Shown in pieces: positions 9,930 to 21,267 of a stretch of 64,000 bases of DNA. Both the position numbers and the translations under genes were made by a program. Where the stretch lies: positions 1 through 64,000 of the forward strand of contig JAHJLI010000106.1 of the NCBI GenBank assembly GCA_018821785.1. The letters are read 5' to 3'. The stretch is from Pseudomonadota bacterium (lineage in GTDB: Bacteria > Desulfobacterota > Desulfobulbia > Desulfobulbales > Desulfocapsaceae). Within the stretch, counting starts at the first letter, position 1. Every line of letters begins with the position of its first letter. Below the pieces are notes generated by a model, which saw only the letters and a program-made list of their open reading frames with translations, was not told the DNA's origin and did no database searches.

Positions 9930-11255
9930 TTATAGGCAAACAAGGTACCAAAAAAGACCAGCACTGCCAGCCCCGCCTATTATAGAAATGATGCCGACTT
10001 TGTAAAACTGCATCAAAGAAAATGAAATGGTGGCGACAATTGCCGAAAACCAGGAAAAACCCTCTGCCGGGAGGAGAACATGGGTGCCGAACCAGACGCC
10101 CAGATTAAAAACAACGCCTACCACGGCCGGGGTAATAGTGGCCAGCGCGGCAGACATTTTGCTGTTGCCGGCCAGTCGTTCGATATACGGGGCCCCGAGA
10201 AAAATAAAGAGAAAGCTCGGGAGAAAAGTGAAATAGGTGGCAACAAGAGAACCGGTGACGGATCCGAGAAAGGGTCCAAAGTTTGTTGGATGATTAAAGC
10301 CAGCTAGAAATCCGACAAACTGCACAACCATGATAAGCGGGCCGGGTGTCGTTTCGGCAAGCCCCAAACCATCCATCATCTGCAGACTGGTAAGCCAACC
10401 ATATTGCTCAACGCCTGCCTGGGCGATATAGCCAAGCAGGGAATAAGCGCCGCCAAAGGTCAGAAAAGCAGCCTTGGTGAAGAAGAGGGCCTCGGTGGCA
10501 AAGATTGATTCCGGAAGGAGATAATGAAGTCCAAGAAAAGGTATGCCCCATAAAGCAATGAAGACCGCCAAAAGCATCGCGGTTCTGGAAAGAGAAGGGT
10601 AAGCACTGTCGTGAGCGGTGGTCCTCTCAACCGAGAAGGACGTTCCGTCTGGTTTTTTACCAGGTAAAAAGAGATTTGGGAAAAATTGGCTGCCAACAAT
10701 TCCGATTATTCCAACCGAGAGAATGAGGGCCGGGAAAGGGAATTTAAGGAAATAGGTAACGAGAAAGGATATTGCGGCAATTGCGATCAACAGATTGTTT
10801 TTTAGTGATTTTTTGCCGATTTTGATCACTGCCGCAAGGACTATCGCAAGTACTGCGGCTTTCAGTCCGGAAAATATTGCCGCCACCCATGGCAGGGAGC
10901 CGAAAGTGATATAGATAAAGCTGAGAGCAAAAAGAATAAATACCGAAGGCAGGACAAAGAGCACGCCAGCAGTAATTCCGCCGCGGGTTTTATGAAGAAG
11001 CCAGCCGATATAGGTGGCGAGCTGCTGGGCCTCTGGTCCGGGCAGGAGCATGCAGTAATTGAGAGCATGCAGGAAGCGGTCATTGCTTATCCATTTTCTT
11101 CGATCAACCAGTTCCTGGTGCATGATAGCGATTTGGCCAGCAGGGCCGCCAAAACTAATCCAGCCGAGTTTCAGCCAGAAGAGAAAGGCTTCTTTGAAAG
11201 AGGGTGTGACCTGTTCAGGTTCTATGATTTTTGTGTTGGGATCTGAAGGAGTCAT
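9930..11255 (-). CDS. chrA: Chromate transporter, ChrA family (two-domain)
   Basis: FLFWLKLGWISFGGPAGQIAIMHQELVDRRKWIS...LNYCMLLPGPEAQQLATYIGW; second half FFTKAAFLTFGGAYSLLGYIAQ...GLAETTPGPLIMVVQFVGF. Confidence 0.95.
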   Translation of the reverse strand: MTPSDPNTKIIEPEQVTPSFKEAFLFWLKLGWISFGGPAGQIAIMHQELVDRRKWISNDRFLHALNYCMLLPGPEAQQLATYIGWLLHKTRGGITAGVLFVLPSVFILFALSFIYITFGSLPWVAAIFSGLKAAVLAIVLAAVIKIGKKSLKNNLLIAIAAISFLVTYFLKFPFPALILSVGIIGIVGSQFFPNLFLPGKKPDGTSFSVERTTAHDSAYPSLSRTAMLLAVFIALWGIPFLGLHYLLPESIFATEALFFTKAAFLTFGGAYSLLGYIAQAGVEQYGWLTSLQMMDGLGLAETTPGPLIMVVQFVGFLAGFNHPTNFGPFLGSVTGSLVATYFTFLPSFLFIFLGAPYIERLAGNSKMSAALATITPAVVGVVFNLGVWFGTHVLLPAEGFSWFSAIVATISFSLMQFYKVGIISIIGGAGSAGLFWYLVCL

Positions 11256-11348
11256 ATATTTACCATGAGTTTATTGAGAAGCTGGTATCGTCTTGCAGAA
11301 AAACAAGGCAGAAACGACCAGTTGAGTTGTAATTGTTGATTATCCTTG

Positions 11349-12356
11349 TTAGTTGATTTCTGTTAACGAAAGATATAGTGCTTCAAAAACCTCAATACCC
11401 TGTTCAAGTGTCTCGTTGTCTGACAGCGCTTTTTTGCGGATGCCTCTCAGCAACATTTCAATACCTTGGATTTCAGGTGCCGAAAATTTTTCATCTTTTA
11501 TGTCTATGTTGTGGACAATTGCGGCAAGAGCGTTGAGTCCATTGGCGGTCAGACCAAAACTTTTCAGCAGTACTTCGAAGGTGCATAAATCTTCGAAGTG
11601 GGTGAAATCTCCATAACGAACGTCAAACGCGACCTCGTTTGCGCCTTTCAGATTCTTCAGATCACCCTCATCCCGGAAGACAAAAGTCGCTTGCGGGTCG
11701 ATGAAGCGTCGAATCAGCCATGCGCAGGCCATTCTGTCGACAAAAGGTCTCTTGCGTGTTACCCATCGCAGGTTGGAATATTTTTCAATTTTTATTCCCT
11801 TGGATAATACATTCCCGGCAAATGTCCTTGTTCCTTTTTTGATTGCGGTGAGCGTCTCCAACTGGCCTTTTAGGGCCTGGAGCCGACCTACCAGACTCTG
11901 ACCCGATTCCGACTTAAAAAAATCGCGGTTGTGCACTGTGTGGAAATCGGCCTGGATCTTTTCAAACTGTCTGAACAGGGAGATGGATTTTTTGTCTTTG
12001 CCGCCCTTGCGCAGGTTGTCAATTCTACCGGATAGTTCATCGATCTTTTTGCCAACTTCCTGGTACTGCAGGTGCCGCTGCTCATTGAACAATGCTATGA
12101 TCTCCTGCTGCTGCAAAGGTTCTATGGTCTCAGTGGTGACAAGAAGTCCTTCTCCTTTAAGTCCGGGAAGTTCGGCAAGCATCCATTGAAGGGCTTCATG
12201 GTTGTCTTCAAGGTAGGGAAGGACGTAAACCCCGCCCTTCAATTGAACCGCCCCGGTTTTTTGTAGTTTGCGCCAAATCTTTACCCGGTTTTTCACCGGG
12301 GTTGCCGGGATGGAATAAAAAAACAGCAGCCATTTTAGGGTCTGAAAACCTTGCAT
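11349..12356 (-). CDS. chrB: Chromate resistance protein ChrB-like
   Basis: N-terminal ChrB region (LFFYSIPATPVKNRVKIWRKLQKTGAVQLKGGVYVLP) and C-terminal domain (WVTRKRPFVDRMACAWLIRRFIDPQATFVF). Confidence 0.9.
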   Translation of the reverse strand: MQGFQTLKWLLFFYSIPATPVKNRVKIWRKLQKTGAVQLKGGVYVLPYLEDNHEALQWMLAELPGLKGEGLLVTTETIEPLQQQEIIALFNEQRHLQYQEVGKKIDELSGRIDNLRKGGKDKKSISLFRQFEKIQADFHTVHNRDFFKSESGQSLVGRLQALKGQLETLTAIKKGTRTFAGNVLSKGIKIEKYSNLRWVTRKRPFVDRMACAWLIRRFIDPQATFVFRDEGDLKNLKGANEVAFDVRYGDFTHFEDLCTFEVLLKSFGLTANGLNALAAIVHNIDIKDEKFSAPEIQGIEMLLRGIRKKALSDNETLEQGIEVFEALYLSLTEIN

Positions 12357-12603: not shown

Positions 12604-12870
12604 TCACTTCTTGCTTGGCAGGACTGGCAGTTGTTCTTCCAGCGCCGGGGAGGAGGTGTAGAATTTGGCCTCTTTGTCAGAGAGTTTGCCCTGTTTCATC
12701 AGGAGCCGGATCTCCTCTACATTTACAGTTCGAGGTTTTCCGATGGATGCGGATGTCGTGGAATCTTGCCACAAGCCTCTTAGTTCATTGCAGCGGTGCA
12801 GGGACAGGGTAAAAATCACCAGTGCCATTGTACCAACTGCAACGAGGTATGCCGCTTCAATTTTTCTCAT
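12604..12870 (-). CDS. Small single-TM protein at the 3' end of the AmmeMemoRadiSam operon
   Basis: MRKIEAAYLVAVGTMALVIFTLSLHRCNELRGLWQ...RTVNVEEIRLLMKQGKLSDKEAKFY; start overlaps the end of the upstream gene by 14 bp (coupled). Confidence 0.65.
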   Translation of the reverse strand: MRKIEAAYLVAVGTMALVIFTLSLHRCNELRGLWQDSTTSASIGKPRTVNVEEIRLLMKQGKLSDKEAKFYTSSPALEEQLPVLPSKK

Positions 12871-15800
12871 GGCGGCACCTGTCACATTGCAGACAATCCA
12901 GGTCCGTTTGCCGGTGAACACCCATATCGCATAAGTCGGGCCTGGTTTTTGGGAGGAAACGACGGAGAAGGCGAATTCCACCTAAAAGGGCCAGAAAAGC
13001 ACCGGCTGGGCAGAGGTTTCGGCACCAAAAACGCCTGAAAAAGTAAGAGAGGACGAGAAGGCAGAGGGCGAGGATAATCACCATTCGGTTGCCCGCCGCT
13101 CCAAAAATGGTGATGAGCGGGTCGGCGTCAAGTACAGTTAAATCACGGGTCAATGCGAAAAGGAGTATGAAGAGTAAGAGTACGATATACTTGCAAAAAC
13201 GTCCATAACGCCACACCTGTCTTTGTGGGTCTGGAAGGATTTGTGTTGGTCGGAGATCACCGATTAATTCCTGAATTGCGCCAAAAGGACATAGATATCC
13301 GCAATAGACATTGCCAAACAGCACAACCATTCCAGGGACGACTGCTATGAGGAAAAATGCGCTACTGACAATCTCCAAGGAAAAATTGCCTGAGAGGAGT
13401 GCCATGACCTGCTGAGATGCGTACTGGTGATTAAGAACTATCCCAAACAGCACCAAAGATACTGTCAGAATAAGACGTCTCGTCCAGCGACCAGGCCGAT
13501 AACGCGCGGCAAGGACAACAAAACTCCATACCACAAACGCTGCGAATTGCCACGGTGGACCTGCAGAAAAGGAGGTGGTCACATCCCCCTGAGCAGGTCG
13601 ACCGAGTACGACCTCGCCGAAACCACTCGACGATCTGGTGATCGTTTTCAAGATGGCAGCGGATGACATCGTAGCCCCGGACACCGCATCTATTCCTTGT
13701 AACCCATTGGCTGTGAACAGCTCTTTTTCTTTTAAGGTTTCCAGCCAGCCGCGTAGAAATGCCAGATAAGCTGGAGTTTCGTTCGATGGGAGGATGCGAA
13801 AATTTTTCAGAACGCCGAGGTCATCTATCCAGATAGCGAGAGGGATCTCCCCACCATAGCCCCTGACACCTCTTGCTAGCGGTGTCGAAGGGAAGAGGTA
13901 TCCACCGGGCACAAGGTAGTAGATAAAGGTCGTGCCATCCGTAAGAGTTGCCTTCTGTTCCTGACGCTTGAGGGTGCCGGCCATTTCGGCTGCAGCGGCT
14001 TGAAAGTTTTCAATCTCATGGTCACTCTGCGTTAAATGGAAACCTTGGGAAACAAGCATGGAAAATGCTCCGACCCCCACAAACAGGTATCCGAAGGGTC
14101 GTCGGTTTCTATCAAACCAGTCGCGAATTACGGTAGAAGCGGCTTCTTGTCGGGCAATCAGGGACATGAGATTGATGACGATCACTGTGGTGATCAAGAC
14201 CAAAAATGACGCCCTTGTTCCCAGAAGAGGCAATAATATAAGGCCGGTGGCCAAAGCACCCACAGCTCCGCCAACATGATCCAGCAATTCCAGTCGTCCG
14301 GCCGCGGCCTCTACCCCGTATCCACTTGTATTCAAACACCTTGCCGCAACTGGAAAGTACAACCCGGAGAAAACACCGACAGTCGTGAAAAACACACCCA
14401 GAGCTAACCGTGAAGCCTCGACAGGCGATTGGAAAATAAAGATTAAGAACAATATCGTCTCGCAAGCAGTTATGGTCAAAATGATCTGGGGAATGGCAAT
14501 TCTTCTCTGCAGCAGGAGTCTTTCACAGGCAAATCCACCTAGTGCCGAGCCAAGCATGAACAAAGATGAGATCAGCCCAATATCGAGGAACAGGGATCCA
14601 AATCGAACCTGATAACAAAACATGAGGACCACCGTCGCAGACATGCCGACCAATCCAGCCGTAAAAAGCATGGCTTGGATCTCAAAGAGATTCAGAGATC
14701 TTTCTTTTTTTTGTGCAGATGCTGACAGGAGTGAGTTCCTCAGGTAAGAAAAGCGCAGCAGGCCGTAGAGAAAAATCCCGACATGGCAGATCCACGTTCC
14801 ATTGTCGACCAGGAATACCGCCGCCCGGGCGACGGGGCCCAGCCCCGCACGGCGGAGGGTGAGCAGCATGTCAAAGAGGAGGGCCTTCGGGTGGTTGTCG
14901 GTATTCTCTAGGAGATTTTTTCCATATTTTTCTTCAGCAGAGCGGTACCTGTCTTTCTGAAAAGCGATGCGGTCTTGTTGAAAGGCGGCGAGCAAGCCTT
15001 CTTTCGGATAGAGCTGTGAGGAGCCTTCAACTGCTGCAAAACCTTTGGCCAGAACCGAGGGCGACTCGCTGAGGATATCTTCCGTTGCGGCAAAAAAAAA
15101 GCTCTCATCGCCAGGTTTTAACGCCACCCGGGGGAAAACCGATGACAGCGTTGTGAGTGTCGAAGCACCGGCCAAGACACGTTCGCCACTGAGATAATTG
15201 GCTCCACCTGATACCCTGACAGCACAGATCCCGGCAGGCGCGAGAACGTTTTTTACAAGGGCGAAGAAGGCCTTCGAAAAATAGCGGTTGAGGACAAGGG
15301 TGGTTGCCTCTGGGAGATTGACGATCACAAGATCAAATTTTTTCTCGGTCTGTTGCAGGTACGCTCGCACCTCTATCTGGGGAGCATTCACATGGCCGAC
15401 AGAATTTCGAATCTTGTTTGGCAATACATCAAAGATCTTTTTTGGAAACTCTGGATCGGGGTACAGCCAAACAACGTCATGAATCTGAGGAAGTACCTTG
15501 AGCCGACTGGCAATCGCAGGACCGCCCGGACCGACGATGAGCACATTTGCAGCAACAGGGTTCTGTGCGATCGCCCAGGCGGCGACTTCTGAGGCATGCT
15601 CCTTTTCGGGAAGGGCTTCAATCACGCCCCCTTCAGTCATGACGATGAAATCGCCATCTCGTTCACCATACAGATACTGCGATTGGGCGGTGATGAAGCT
15701 GCCTTTATAGGTATCGACCGGGAGCAACCGGCTCCACTGGGAGCGGGCCGCATGGTTCGAAGCGAGGTCACCGATTATTCTTATGGTAAACAATGCCATC

Positions 15801-16423
15801 ATCGCTATGCTTGCAACGAGGCACCACCGCAGCAGACTCATCCGATCCGGTATATACCGAGCAAGCAGCGCAGTGCAAAGCACCAGTGCCGCATAGAGAA
15901 AGACCTTTTCTCCTGGCATCCCAAGAACAAGGAGCCCTGTAACAAAAAGCCCGCCGACGAATCCTCCGAAAGTTTCCAGTATATAGACACGGGCAACAGG
16001 CAGGGCAAATGTCCCCGCCACCCAGGTGCAGGCCATGGAAAAAAGAAATCCGGTAAGAAAACTTGTTGGGGCGTTGGCGAGAGAGGCAAAAACCAGCAGC
16101 GACGGGAGAGGCACCAGCACAAATGACTCAAGACCAAGGATTGACCTGGCCCTGTAAATCAGCTGGTGCTGGATGAAAGAGGCCGGGAGATAGAGCAGCG
16201 GAAAGAAAAGGAAATGGGGCAGAGCCGCAGGAAACCCCAAGGAAAAAAGCCTGCCGGCAACAGCACCAATGCCCACCCAGAGCAGCCACGACCCGAAGAA
16301 AGTTCCGACGGCGATTTCGTTGCCTTCAAGCGAAGAGAGAAAGTCGCGAAACAGCAGGGTTTGCGACACCAGAGCAAAGAATCCCAGTGCGGCAATGGGA
16401 ACTTCACTCGTCAGTCTTCTCAT
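12857..16423 (-). CDS. Multidomain membrane protein: spermidine-synthase-like MFS-type region + FMN-binding domain + NosR/NapH-like 4Fe-4S domain
   Basis: N-terminal TM helices; central Rossmann-like VLIVGPGGPAIASRL; second TM block; FMN-attachment-like DAVSGATMSS; C-terminal YCGYLCPFGAIQE, FWCRNLCPAGAF, CLQCDRC. Confidence 0.85.
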   Translation of the reverse strand: MRRLTSEVPIAALGFFALVSQTLLFRDFLSSLEGNEIAVGTFFGSWLLWVGIGAVAGRLFSLGFPAALPHFLFFPLLYLPASFIQHQLIYRARSILGLESFVLVPLPSLLVFASLANAPTSFLTGFLFSMACTWVAGTFALPVARVYILETFGGFVGGLFVTGLLVLGMPGEKVFLYAALVLCTALLARYIPDRMSLLRWCLVASIAMMALFTIRIIGDLASNHAARSQWSRLLPVDTYKGSFITAQSQYLYGERDGDFIVMTEGGVIEALPEKEHASEVAAWAIAQNPVAANVLIVGPGGPAIASRLKVLPQIHDVVWLYPDPEFPKKIFDVLPNKIRNSVGHVNAPQIEVRAYLQQTEKKFDLVIVNLPEATTLVLNRYFSKAFFALVKNVLAPAGICAVRVSGGANYLSGERVLAGASTLTTLSSVFPRVALKPGDESFFFAATEDILSESPSVLAKGFAAVEGSSQLYPKEGLLAAFQQDRIAFQKDRYRSAEEKYGKNLLENTDNHPKALLFDMLLTLRRAGLGPVARAAVFLVDNGTWICHVGIFLYGLLRFSYLRNSLLSASAQKKERSLNLFEIQAMLFTAGLVGMSATVVLMFCYQVRFGSLFLDIGLISSLFMLGSALGGFACERLLLQRRIAIPQIILTITACETILFLIFIFQSPVEASRLALGVFFTTVGVFSGLYFPVAARCLNTSGYGVEAAAGRLELLDHVGGAVGALATGLILLPLLGTRASFLVLITTVIVINLMSLIARQEAASTVIRDWFDRNRRPFGYLFVGVGAFSMLVSQGFHLTQSDHEIENFQAAAAEMAGTLKRQEQKATLTDGTTFIYYLVPGGYLFPSTPLARGVRGYGGEIPLAIWIDDLGVLKNFRILPSNETPAYLAFLRGWLETLKEKELFTANGLQGIDAVSGATMSSAAILKTITRSSSGFGEVVLGRPAQGDVTTSFSAGPPWQFAAFVVWSFVVLAARYRPGRWTRRLILTVSLVLFGIVLNHQYASQQVMALLSGNFSLEIVSSAFFLIAVVPGMVVLFGNVYCGYLCPFGAIQELIGDLRPTQILPDPQRQVWRYGRFCKYIVLLLFILLFALTRDLTVLDADPLITIFGAAGNRMVIILALCLLVLSYFFRRFWCRNLCPAGAFLALLGGIRLLRRFLPKTRPDLCDMGVHRQTDLDCLQCDRCRHEKN

Positions 16424-18027
16424 AGATCGCTCTCACTAAAGACGATGGCCTGAAAGACAGTAAACGATGCACCCTCCATCCAGGCATCCGCCGGTAGTCC
16501 GGCCTTCAGGGCGAGCTGCGAAAGCATTTCTTCGAGCCCCCAACCCTGTTCAGGGGCAACCTGGGGGAGAAACACGGCGCTTCGCCCGTTCTTTTGCAGA
16601 ACGACTCCGTCGCGACCGACAACAATGTCAAGGTAGGAGGCGACCGGCGTGGGCGGAGTGAGGGCGGAAATCTCAAAGGAGAGCTCACTGAATTCATTCT
16701 TGTGCACCGCCGAAAATCTGGAATCATGCACTGCCGCATCTATGGCGCGGTGCATGACCGCCTGGTATAGCGGTCGTACCGGCGTGATCTCGCCGATGCA
16801 GCCTCTAAGATTTTCATGCTTTTTCAATGTTACAAAGGCGCCCATGATCTGCTGCATTCCAGGGGTGATCTCTATGCCCAACTTCTCCGGTGTCGGAGGC
16901 ACCCCCTTGTCCAAATATTGTTGCAAAGTGCCTTTTGCCAGTGCCATGAGCCGGCTCTTATCATCCTGAGACAATCCGTGGCTCTTGGGAGCCTTTTCTT
17001 CTTTTACAATTGCCTCCCAGTTGCCGGTGACGGCAGCGCTCAGGTAACTGACCGAGGAGGAAAAATCGTGAGTCTTGGCACCGGAGGTTTCATAGTGTAA
17101 CAGCTGGATACGACTTTTTGCTGGAAGCATGGCCAGTAAGACCTCGATCGCCGTTTGGCCGCAGATGGTTGCACCTGTCTTCTGCACATAGGAAGCAAAA
17201 CCACGAGAGTTTTGCTCTTCAATCAGTTTGAAAGCCCCCATATCAAGTTTTTTCAAGTTTTCCGGTATATCTGCAGTGAAGGGAAGATAACCAAAATTGC
17301 TGCCATAATGGGTGAAGTCGCTGGACGCTACCACCAAAGTATCAGGGGTCAAATGACGCCGCAGGATGTCAGCGACAGCCTGGGTCGAAGCGCTGTCAAG
17401 CCTTCCGAGAACAATGGGGACAAAAAGGAACTCTCCCAGTCTTCGCTGCAAGGCCGGAAGCAGAATCTGGACGCTGTGTTCGCTTTCATTGGCGGCTGGG
17501 ATGACATGGAAGTAACGAGATTGTAACAGTTCCTGAATAAGATCTACATCAAGGGGCGTTTCAGCAAATGGCGTGGCATAGTGGGTCGCATCAGGAAGGC
17601 TGGCAGAATTTTGGAGAAGGACATGATGGGAAGGCCCGAGCACGATGACTCTGCGAATTTTTGCCACTTCAATCTGTTTGATGCCATAGGCGGCAGTTTG
17701 TCCTGACCACTGGAGTCCGGCGTGAGGCATAATCAAAGCGCAGACCGGAGGAAGAACCCTCTCGGGAACGTTGAGCATGTAGCCATCGATTGCCGCGGAC
17801 AGCTTGGCCGAATCGGCATCATACCAGGTGCCGGCAAAGGGTGAGGGGAAGATTTTTTTGTTGGCGGAAGTTTTATCGGTATCTTCCTGCGATGTCAGGG
17901 CGTTCTGCCCACCTTGCTGAGAAGGTGCAGATCCAACGTTTCCTGCGACTGCAAAAGGGGTTTGCTGAATAAGTGTCAACCAGATCACGAGAAAGAGAGT
18001 GATAACAAGATGTTTGTGCATCGTCAT
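16420..18027 (-). CDS. Exported MEMO1-AMMECR1 fusion (AmmeMemoRadiSam system proteins B+A)
   Basis: N-terminal signal-peptide-like segment; MEMO1 (GTWYDADSAKLSAAI, IMPHAGLQWSGQTAAYG, VVASSDFTHYG); AMMECR1 (LRGCIGEITPVRPL, DSRFSAVHKNEFSELSFEISALTPP). Confidence 0.92.
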   Translation of the reverse strand: MTMHKHLVITLFLVIWLTLIQQTPFAVAGNVGSAPSQQGGQNALTSQEDTDKTSANKKIFPSPFAGTWYDADSAKLSAAIDGYMLNVPERVLPPVCALIMPHAGLQWSGQTAAYGIKQIEVAKIRRVIVLGPSHHVLLQNSASLPDATHYATPFAETPLDVDLIQELLQSRYFHVIPAANESEHSVQILLPALQRRLGEFLFVPIVLGRLDSASTQAVADILRRHLTPDTLVVASSDFTHYGSNFGYLPFTADIPENLKKLDMGAFKLIEEQNSRGFASYVQKTGATICGQTAIEVLLAMLPAKSRIQLLHYETSGAKTHDFSSSVSYLSAAVTGNWEAIVKEEKAPKSHGLSQDDKSRLMALAKGTLQQYLDKGVPPTPEKLGIEITPGMQQIMGAFVTLKKHENLRGCIGEITPVRPLYQAVMHRAIDAAVHDSRFSAVHKNEFSELSFEISALTPPTPVASYLDIVVGRDGVVLQKNGRSAVFLPQVAPEQGWGLEEMLSQLALKAGLPADAWMEGASFTVFQAIVFSESDL

Positions 18028-18105: not shown

Positions 18106-18294
18106 TCAACCCGCCCATTTTCCCTGACGGCTGACACTTTCTTTGTCGAGAGGACGAACAGGTCCAGGATACTTTCTCCCACGCAAGGCTCTAACAACGC
18201 GGCTATCGCTCGTCTTTCGCATCCATATAGCAATCGGTACAGCAATGAAAGCGCACAGTGCCGTCACTTGCAATAAAAAACCTCTACGATTCAT
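18106..18294 (-). CDS. 62-aa small protein with Tat-like signal/anchor
   Basis: MNRRGFLLQVTALCAFIAVPIAIWMRKTSDSRVVRALRGRKYPGPVRPLDKESVSRQGKWAG; ATGA overlap with the radical SAM stop codon. Confidence 0.65.
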   Translation of the reverse strand: MNRRGFLLQVTALCAFIAVPIAIWMRKTSDSRVVRALRGRKYPGPVRPLDKESVSRQGKWAG

Positions 18295-19262
18295 AACCAC
18301 ACCCCGTATATCTCGAAATGGCAACGTGGACATCTGCCGTTTTCTATGTTGTTTTTTAGAACTTGAAATGCCCGGCGCTCGACCAGGAGGTCGCGACATT
18401 CCGGACAGAAGGTGTTTTCGCCGTCGGGTATCAGGATGTTGCCAAGGTAAACATAGTAGAGACCAGCATTCCTGGCAATCTCGCGAGCCCTGATCAGTGC
18501 TGCTGCCGGAGTTGGCGGCAGATTCTTCATTTGGTAGTTGGGGAAAAACCGCGAGAAATGCAATGGTATCTCTCGGCCCAGGTTCTGGACAATCCACAGG
18601 CAGAGACTGCGAATTTCCTTGTCGCTGTCGTTCAACGTCGGGATAAGAAGGTTGATCACCTCGATATGGATTCCTAGCGATCTGGCTGTAACCAGACTGT
18701 CCAGCACGGGTTGCAGCGTGGCGTTACAGATATCCCGGTAGAACTTGTCGGAAAGGGCCTTGAGGTCGATGCGCACCGCATCCACCTTTCGGCAAAGCTC
18801 CGCCCATGGCTCGCGGTTGATGTAACCGGCAGTAACTAGTGCGTTTTTCAGTCCTGCTTCCCGGACGAACACCGAACTGTCCACAGTATATTCGTAATAA
18901 ACGACCGGGTCGGTATAGGTGTAGGATACAGACCTGCAGCCATGTTCAACAGCCAACTTCGGAATCTCAGCCGGAAGAAGCTTGGAAGCCGCAACTTTCT
19001 CCGGATTCTGTTGAGAAATCTCCCAGTTCTGGCAGTTCTTGCAATGAAGATTGCAGCCGACAGTGGCTATTGAAAGGCTGGTACTCCCTGGAAGAAAGTG
19101 GAAAAACGGCTTTTTTTCGATCGGATCCACATGCACTGTACAAGGATATCCGTAAGTCACTGCAACCAGTTTGCCGTCGAGGTTCACCCGTATGCGGCAC
19201 TCACCACTTTGGCCGGGTTCCATAAGGCATCGTTTGGGACATAGATCACAGCGGATAATCAT
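18291..19262 (-). CDS. AmmeMemoRadiSam-system radical SAM enzyme
   Basis: CDLCPKRCLMEPGQSGECRIR; radical SAM motif CNLHCKNCQNWEISQ; C-terminal CPEC...CPRC zinc-ribbon-like. Confidence 0.93.
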   Translation of the reverse strand: MIIRCDLCPKRCLMEPGQSGECRIRVNLDGKLVAVTYGYPCTVHVDPIEKKPFFHFLPGSTSLSIATVGCNLHCKNCQNWEISQQNPEKVAASKLLPAEIPKLAVEHGCRSVSYTYTDPVVYYEYTVDSSVFVREAGLKNALVTAGYINREPWAELCRKVDAVRIDLKALSDKFYRDICNATLQPVLDSLVTARSLGIHIEVINLLIPTLNDSDKEIRSLCLWIVQNLGREIPLHFSRFFPNYQMKNLPPTPAAALIRAREIARNAGLYYVYLGNILIPDGENTFCPECRDLLVERRAFQVLKNNIENGRCPRCHFEIYGVWL

Positions 19263-19353: not shown

Positions 19354-21267
19354 TCAGCCCGAAGGACTCTCGCAGACACTGGTGTCGGGTGGGTAGAGAT
19401 CTTCGAGGATGAGGGTTGTGGTAACTATCTGCTCTTCTCTTTGCACCTTTATTACAATAGTGCTGCCAGCTGGTCCACGCAGAATATGACGCAAGGGGAC
19501 AGCCGGGTGGTTCGGGCCGACAGCTTGTCCGGCCAACTCGACAATGATATCGCCGGCAGCAAGGCCGGCCTTGACCGCCGGACTGTTGCTGGCGATATAG
19601 GAAATCATAGGCTGATTGTTTTCAGCTCGGCCGATAATCAGGCCGGATTTGTCACGCGGAAAGGTCACGTTGAAGCTTTTACCTTCTTCTAGAATTATTT
19701 TCTGCTGGGGATAGTTGAGAAAAAGATGAAAATGGCGCAGGGTGGAATTGCCGAGATTGCCGCCGACTTCGCCCAATGCAGTTGCCCCAACTCCTTTTTC
19801 AACGGGAATGGCAATGAGCGGCAGATGCAGCTGGAAACGGTCGATCTGCAAGCAACTGAATTGGATGTTAATTTCGCGGGAAACACCGGACAATCCCTGG
19901 CTGACAATTTCCACCCCTTTTCTCTCAATAAGACCGTGTTTTTCGGCAAAGGGGTAGTGAATTGAACTGTGGTAGGAGCCAAGATCAAAACTCCAGAGGC
20001 TTTTGAATTTGCCGTCGACGGTCACCGGTAGAGCAAAAGTCCGGTATTTCAGGGGAGCATCGACGGTCACTCCTGATCCCTTATATACAAAGGATTCAGG
20101 ATCGTGGAAGGTGACTTGTCGCAGGTCGTAATCGATTTCTACCACAAAGCGCGAAAGAAAGTCGTAACCGAGAATGCCGACCGTCACCGGTTCATAGCTT
20201 TTTGCGGCAAGACCTTTGGATACAAACAATTTTTGGCTGGCGAATTGGATAGAGCCGACCCGGTACTCGGGCAATTTGACGAAGGAGAGGTCAAATAATT
20301 CGCCAAAGCCGTATCCCCTGATACTTCCCTGGACATCAAGGCCGTGTTTTTCGGCGTACTCCTGGTCGATAACCGACATGGAGGCGCCACTGTCGAGCAC
20401 CCAATATTGGGTGTCGCCGCCGATGGTGACCGGTAGATAGATAAGATTTTCAATGAATTCAAAGGGGATAGTTGCCGAGGTGTCACCGTCACGAAAATGA
20501 TAGCCCTTCTCCTTTTGCGGCGGTAAAAAGAGTTTTGCATCGACACCTTGGTTACTGGTGTAGGAGGTGGTCCAGGTCTCTTCGGTTTTTTTCCAGGGAT
20601 GAAAGGTATTGTGCTGGTGAAAGGGCATGATGATGCCGTTAACCTCTTTGTAATCGTCGTAAAAGCTTTCAATCTCCATGTCCGGTTGGCGATAGAGGGA
20701 ACGGACCATGAATAGGGTTTGGCTGTCGAAGAAGAAGTGGCCAATATCACTGTTGATGGTGTTGCTGAGTACCACCTCGTAACAAGGTCGGCCTTTGACC
20801 TTGCTTATCCCGGCGAAGGTCATGGAAAAATTGGGCGATTGCCGGTCAAGGTGATCATATCGGTCGAGCAATACACTGATGCGCCTTCGTTTCAGGGTTT
20901 CCTCGTCCCTGACGATCAGCTGTTGTCCGTTGGTGTCATAGAACCAGGCAAACTCTCCACTATCACCCTCAATCTGAGAGATGATTGAATAATCTTCTTC
21001 GGTTCGATATTGCAGAGGCCTGTTTTCCCAATGATTGAAGGTTCCCTGCAGGCCGTCGTAGTGGACTCGGCCCTCGCTGTGGCTGTTGATGACGTTTTTG
21101 AGACGCTCCAGGCCACCGACCGCCGCATAATGGCGATGCATGATCTGATAGGGGTCGGAGAGGTCGATGATTTCTTCACTCGCAAAAGCCGGCAAGGTGC
21201 ATAGAAAGGAAAGAAGAATAAAGAGTATTTTGAATGACCCAGGAAAGTAACCCATTTTACGCTCCAT
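19354..21267 (-). CDS. Exported retropepsin-like aspartic protease with PDZ domain
   Basis: Signal peptide; YWVLDSGASMSVID (DSGA); second related domain LWSFDLGSYHSSIH; C-terminal PDZ (SYIASNSPAVKAGLAAGDIIVELAGQAVG). Confidence 0.82.
   Translation of the reverse strand: MERKMGYFPGSFKILFILLSFLCTLPAFASEEIIDLSDPYQIMHRHYAAVGGLERLKNVINSHSEGRVHYDGLQGTFNHWENRPLQYRTEEDYSIISQIEGDSGEFAWFYDTNGQQLIVRDEETLKRRRISVLLDRYDHLDRQSPNFSMTFAGISKVKGRPCYEVVLSNTINSDIGHFFFDSQTLFMVRSLYRQPDMEIESFYDDYKEVNGIIMPFHQHNTFHPWKKTEETWTTSYTSNQGVDAKLFLPPQKEKGYHFRDGDTSATIPFEFIENLIYLPVTIGGDTQYWVLDSGASMSVIDQEYAEKHGLDVQGSIRGYGFGELFDLSFVKLPEYRVGSIQFASQKLFVSKGLAAKSYEPVTVGILGYDFLSRFVVEIDYDLRQVTFHDPESFVYKGSGVTVDAPLKYRTFALPVTVDGKFKSLWSFDLGSYHSSIHYPFAEKHGLIERKGVEIVSQGLSGVSREINIQFSCLQIDRFQLHLPLIAIPVEKGVGATALGEVGGNLGNSTLRHFHLFLNYPQQKIILEEGKSFNVTFPRDKSGLIIGRAENNQPMISYIASNSPAVKAGLAAGDIIVELAGQAVGPNHPAVPLRHILRGPAGSTIVIKVQREEQIVTTTLILEDLYPPDTSVCESPSG

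Follow-up and report, generated by a model that had tools for sequence, protein, structure and literature searches.

A 1188-residue membrane protein joining a SpeE-like domain to a NosR/RdhC-like flavin module, and its probable link to the AmmeMemoRadiSam system

What might a single polypeptide do that joins a spermidine-synthase-like membrane protein to an electron-transfer module, and which proteins does it work with? The question is raised by a gene for 1188 amino acids (aa) in a stretch of 64,000 nucleotides (positions 1 to 64,000 of contig JAHJLI010000106.1, assembly GCA_018821785.1; hereafter the window) from a bacterium of the Desulfocapsaceae (Desulfobacterota). A preliminary description made from the sequence recognized the fusion but overlooked its partner system: both halves of the protein, whether fused or separate, are linked in many genomes to genes of AmmeMemoRadiSam, the system of Memo, AMMECR1 and a radical S-adenosylmethionine (SAM) enzyme. 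We consider it very probable that the fusion itself is linked to this system. The gene and the parts of its product are as follows (TM, transmembrane; FMN, flavin mononucleotide).

12857..16423, minus strand: fusion gene, ATG start, 1188 aa, a single reading frame without internal stop
Residues ~1-218 (N-half): TM block 1
Residues ~231-470 (N-half): SpeE-like domain
Residues ~543-756 (N-half): TM block 2
Residues 855-928 (C-half): FMN_bind domain, with T918
C-half, continued: RdhC/NosR-like TM segment with CX3CP motifs at 1041 and 1134
C-half, end: terminal four-cysteine cluster

Pfam, NCBIfam and profile matches all bear out the proposed division into a membrane-bound SpeE-like part, a covalent-FMN-type domain and a NosR/NapH-like module. 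When the single sequence was compared with Pfam, FMN_bind (residues 855-928, 36.7 bits) and two copies of Fer4_5 (55.5 bits) exceeded their cut-offs of 22, and Spermine_synth (residues 354-400, 21.0 bits) fell slightly below its cut-off of 22.9. The best NCBIfam models were the membrane-bound polyamine aminopropyltransferase PRK03612 for the N-half (residues 29-404, 43 bits) and the C-terminal part of NosR for the C-half (residues 980-1153, 53 bits), each far below its equivalog cut-off, and the C-half profile also matched RnfG, NqrC and an isolated FMN domain. Alignment places VLIVGPGGPAIASRL at residues 294-308, WLYPDPEF at 319-326 and DAVSGAT at 912-918. The last of these, proposed earlier as a flavin-attachment site, lies inside FMN_bind and fits the flavinylation motif D-x-x-[S/T]-G-A-[S/T] (PMC12052999); two ApbE genes are present in the same genome. 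The cysteine motifs CGYLCP (1041-1046), CRNLCP (1134-1139) and CLQCDRC (1177-1183) are likewise all present, though CX3CP motifs are not established iron-sulfur ligands in NosR or RdhC. The terminal set C1165-x11-C1177-x2-C1180-x2-C1183, which is shared by both distant fusions described below and is missing from stand-alone C-half proteins, is the likelier candidate for a cluster site.

The fusion is not an artefact of merging two genes, because the same architecture recurs in other genomes and each of its domains is under constraint. A scan of contigs with the single sequence gave one relative, and a genome-wide protein search of the class and the phylum supplied the others. The full architecture was found at 75% identity in an uncultured delta proteobacterium of the same genus (G152, contig CAIQWD010000018) and at 31% identity across residues 12-1184 in another family of the phylum (G628). 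Together with the window these are the only three full fusions among 258 class and 395 phylum genomes, and the remaining relatives match one half. For the window compared with the 75% copy, the ratio of nonsynonymous to synonymous substitution rates (dN/dS) is 0.25 for TM block 1, 0.22 for the SpeE-like domain, 0.20 for TM block 2, 0.16 for the FMN domain and 0.13 for the C-terminal module; thus purifying selection acts on every domain. The preliminary description would have been refuted by homologs that are always split and lack a functional association; homologs are mostly split, but both halves retain their linkage to AmmeMemoRadiSam.

In the window, the fusion gene belongs to a same-strand cluster with overlapping neighbours.

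12604..12870, minus strand: 88-aa protein whose single TM segment is N-terminal; its gene shares 14 bases with the fusion gene at the latter's 3' end
16420..18027, minus strand: Memo and AMMECR1 fused in one protein (AmmeMemoSam_B and _A), 535 aa, with an apparent N-terminal export signal
18106..18294, minus strand: 62-aa small protein resembling a twin-arginine translocation (Tat) signal (MNRRGFLLQ...GKWAG); its gene overlaps the stop codon of the radical SAM gene by ATGA
18291..19262, minus strand: AmmeMemoRadiSam radical SAM enzyme, 323 aa, CX3CX2C, no N-terminal signal
19354..21267, minus strand: exported retropepsin-like and PDZ protein with two retropepsin-like stretches, directly upstream of the radical SAM gene

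All three signature components of AmmeMemoRadiSam are above cut-off in this operon. The radical SAM enzyme scores 373 bits for TIGR04337 (cut-off 220), and the Memo-AMMECR1 protein, whose gene is one gene away, scores 190 bits for TIGR04336 (cut-off 26) and 156 bits for TIGR04335 (cut-off 99). The Memo-AMMECR1 gene ends within an ATGA overlap in which the fusion gene starts. By motif, residues H102, H134 and C289 of its Memo part correspond to H49, H81 and C244 of MEMO1, which are iron ligands there (PMC11081632), and its AMMECR1 part retains LRGCIG. Elsewhere in the genome AMMECR1 is encoded once more, by a separate gene, and the radical SAM enzyme has a second copy. The 62-aa protein is 77% and 60% identical to its counterparts in two genomes of the same genus (dN/dS 0.13), and beyond the genus no recognizable relative was found, weak matches (E 0.002-0.01) being judged chance. 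The 88-aa protein has no Pfam match; its counterparts adjoin the gene of the FMN protein in G152, G628, G340, G268, G305 and G287. Whether the retropepsin-like/PDZ protein, kept at about 80% in G152 and G148, belongs to the system is uncertain. Genes for ChrB and the chromate transporter ChrA lie downstream of the operon in the window (9930-12356) and in G152 (L032 5856-9446), there with an extra gene of the major facilitator superfamily (MFS) between.

The same association is seen in other genomes. G152 keeps the gene order of the window at 75-89% identity, and in G628 genes for the radical SAM enzyme and an exported Memo-AMMECR1 protein adjoin the fusion on the opposite strand. Among 61 relatives of the N-half, a set that is not random since it comprises the class-search matches taken and a selection of the phylum-search matches, 42 have a radical SAM gene of this type within 5 kb, 30 have Memo/AMMECR1 as well, and in 36 the radical SAM protein carries a Tat motif by a stricter test. 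The C-half behaves similarly. As a query it matched proteins in seven of 390 phylum genomes at 1e-25, with a radical SAM gene nearby wherever the contig permits a view; the G323 contig breaks off next to the C-half gene, so that its neighbours are out of view. Stand-alone C-half proteins (FMN_bind plus CX3CP, 392-417 aa), which have a small single-TM protein alongside, adjoin genes for the radical SAM enzyme and a membrane-anchored Memo in G340 and G287, the latter locus also having AMMECR1, and the partial views in G305 and G268 show the same context as far as the contigs reach. Since almost all genomes of the phylum (187 of 198) contain TIGR04337, its presence alone says little, and it is adjacency and the fusions that carry the argument.

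Several further arrangements were observed at these loci. A SpeE-like membrane protein is fused to a CX3CP module beside a Tat-type AmmeMemoRadiSam radical SAM gene at L040, L047 and L052 (986, 994 and 1031 aa); the one such protein that was scanned has Fer4_5 and lacks FMN_bind. DUF362 proteins with Tat-like signals adjoin radical SAM, Memo, AMMECR1 or SpeE-like genes (L169 5278-6477, L107 12063-13070, L043 3916-4833) and are possibly a further component of the system. In G628 the fusion and its small single-TM protein are followed by rhodanese-like genes (L099 5599-6984).

What the SpeE-like domain does can be approached through its residues. A profile of 12 relatives matches spermidine synthases in the PDB with an E-value of 1.5e-37 over the central domain, so that by profile the domain has the SpeE fold; it has neither the catalytic Asp nor the ribose-binding acid of a spermidine synthase. 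The roles of these residues in SpeE are textbook knowledge. In an alignment of 62 family members the catalytic-Asp column holds Asn in 34, including N369 of the window, and Asp in seven, and N379-R380 form a pair that varies little or not at all, at a position where solved enzymes differ. The Glu at the end of strand 2, the ribose-binding acid, is kept in 58 of the 62 but replaced by Tyr321 in the window. The alteration suspected in WLYPDPEF is therefore real, as is the degeneracy of the domain that had been deduced from it. Because the catalytic Asp is mostly lost and the NR pair differs from the solved enzymes, aminopropyl transfer is improbable for the family as a whole, and the domain of the window has degenerated further. 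Most likely, the domain binds a SAM-related nucleoside or a partner.

A family-averaged profile shows seven TM segments ahead of the SpeE-like domain and a second block behind it. The bias in positive charge is strong at TM2, TM6, TM9 and TM10, and it predicts that the SpeE-like domain lies outside the membrane, which would in turn place the FMN domain outside and the CX3CP motifs and the terminal cysteine cluster inside. Such a placement agrees with the FMN domain of PceC, which has been located outside by experiment (PMC5928378).

The radical SAM enzymes add a pattern of their own. In a tree of 69 sequences, those linked to FMN proteins (the window, G152, G148, G628, G268/G305/G340 and G287) form one clade (94/92) in which no Tat signals occur; the contig of G148 stops before the position where the fusion would be expected. 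Tat motifs, typically SRRTFIK, SRRDFLK or NRRQFFL, are found on 46 of the 69, all outside the FMN-linked clade, and a separate clade of 14 looks cytosolic. The CX3CX2C motif is intact in all 69, including the window's enzyme. In this sample, therefore, acquisition of the FMN module coincides with disappearance of the Tat signal. A different family of Tat-signal radical SAM proteins, about 24% identical to the window's, was seen at L037 (11723-12802), L039 (11556-12626) and L043 (4894-5976), where it adjoins SpeE-like membrane proteins with no Memo/AMMECR1 nearby.

We lean towards a reading in which the fusion would act, much as NosR and RdhC do, as a membrane platform or scaffold and an electron conduit for an envelope-facing variant of AmmeMemoRadiSam. 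Electrons from a cytosolic donor or quinol would pass to the cysteine sites of the fusion and from there to the FMN on T918 outside, which might then reduce the exported Memo-AMMECR1 partner, with its H/H/C metal site, or another envelope component. The SpeE-like domain would serve for binding or docking of a SAM-related nucleoside or a partner protein, with no aminopropyl transfer. Outward electron transfer by the fusion is reasonably probable and has a precedent in NosR and RdhC, which are thought to serve periplasmic enzymes as electron donors (PMC12052999, PMC5928378). That Memo-AMMECR1 is the direct acceptor is a more doubtful, tentative proposal.

Several observations weigh against this reading or against the linkage on which it builds. 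Nineteen of the 61 relatives of the N-half, some of them on truncated contigs, lack a radical SAM gene of the AmmeMemoRadiSam type within 5 kb, and three of the 19 adjoin a gene of the different Tat-type family instead. The charge bias is modest at the two helices that flank the SpeE-like domain (28 versus 11 and 27 versus 15 sequences), only hydropathy and charge enter the predicted topology, and AlphaFold2 gave no usable model of the whole fusion from two sequences (mean pLDDT, the predicted local distance difference test, of 32). The window's radical SAM enzyme has no export signal and may act on either side of the membrane. Many Tat-type operons lack the FMN module and need another electron source; therefore, the module is no universal need of the system. 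Finally, all components of the locus are known as genes alone.

If the radical SAM enzyme itself works outside, it might be exported in the window genus as a hitchhiker of the coupled 62-aa Tat protein, with the fusion supplying the electrons that cleave SAM and the SpeE-like domain handling SAM or nucleoside products. Such an arrangement would fit the Tat signals on two-thirds of the related enzymes (e.g. SRRxFLK) and their uniformly intact CX3CX2C, the conserved small protein whose gene overlaps the radical SAM stop codon by ATGA, the predicted outside position of the SpeE-like domain and the apparent signal of Memo-AMMECR1. Nevertheless, the FMN-linked clade lacks Tat signals, G628 and G340 showed no Tat partner, and the supply of SAM beyond the cytosol would be unexplained, so that we regard this explanation as unlikely. 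For similar chemistry across the family, with Tat export either direct or by a small escort in the window genus, a SAM-related nucleoside supplied through the SpeE-like membrane protein and, in the window, electrons brought through covalent FMN by the same chain, our expectation is slightly lower.

Alternatively, the C-half might donate electrons, in the manner of NosR or RdhC, to a different periplasmic reductase, its place beside AmmeMemoRadiSam genes being incidental; relatives of the C-half (23-27% identity) do occur in reductive dehalogenase-type operons of G128 and G129. We think this improbable: close relatives of the C-half were found in AmmeMemoRadiSam contexts alone, representing three lineages in addition to the window genus, and none of the longer open reading frames of the window was recognized as a reductive dehalogenase or nos gene. 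A role in detoxification of chromate or metal oxyanions, to which the ChrB and ChrA genes downstream of the fusion in the window genome (G000) and G152 might point, is very unlikely, since a gap of ~250 bp separates ChrB from the operon and no copy of either gene was noticed at the other FMN-type loci (G628, G340, G287, G268). Hardly credible at all is an active aminopropyltransferase that makes polyamine at the membrane under redox control; the family profile does match spermidine synthases (E about 1e-37), but Asn in the Asp column, Tyr in place of the ribose acid and the near-invariant NR pair all speak against it.

Comparison with known systems shows what is shared and what is particular to this locus. 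The window has all three signature proteins of AmmeMemoRadiSam, but its Memo and AMMECR1 are fused and apparently exported, and it has gained the SpeE-like and FMN membrane protein and two small membrane proteins. With RdhC/PceC the fusion has in common an FMN_bind domain predicted to lie outside, two CX3CP motifs and a comparable membrane module (C-half identity 23-27%), whereas it has no reductive dehalogenase among its operon neighbours, is joined to a SpeE-like membrane protein and possesses the terminal four-cysteine cluster. RdhC-like FMN operons were found at L054 (1601-4761 and 7147-10287) and L048 (8902-12085); PF13486, the reductive dehalogenase model, is matched by the product of L054 3295-4761 and by neither of the other two Tat-signal iron-sulfur proteins (546 and 551 aa). 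The CX3CP membrane module is common to the fusion, NosR and NapH, and the FMN domain is shared with NosR, but the window protein reaches only 53 of 1000 bits for NosR and 37 of 213 bits for NapH, and no nos or nap genes were noticed nearby. A TM block and the SpeE fold are shared with PRK03612 and the fused MFS-spermidine synthase NF037959, from which the window family differs in its second TM block with conserved motifs, its lost catalytic Asp and its linkage to the AmmeMemoRadiSam radical SAM enzyme, and the window protein also in the loss of the ribose acid.

Neighbourhoods of Memo, AMMECR1 and radical SAM genes are reportedly discussed by Burroughs et al. (2019) in their treatment of the Memo superfamily, and part of the context may be there already. 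In the part of the literature covered, we found neither the fusion nor the Tat export of AmmeMemoRadiSam radical SAM enzymes described, and Memo, AMMECR1 and spermidine synthase are all absent from the main text of two flavinylation surveys (PMC8238504, PMC11334425).

Conservation of Memo and AMMECR1 extends from archaea to humans, yet neither has a known primary molecular function. No dioxygenase activity was found for MEMO1 (PMC11081632), and AMMECR1 is listed among the top-priority uncharacterized archaeal proteins (PMC6393860). An exported, operon-encoded bacterial Memo/AMMECR1 protein that is tied to a redox module would narrow the role of the system, placing it at the membrane and, in this branch, with electrons moving across it. 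Since many of the radical SAM partners bear Tat signals, one may also ask whether radical SAM chemistry takes place beyond the cytoplasm. For the Memo and AMMECR1 proteins, represented in humans by MEMO1 and AMMECR1, the fusion provides a new point of attack that can be tested.

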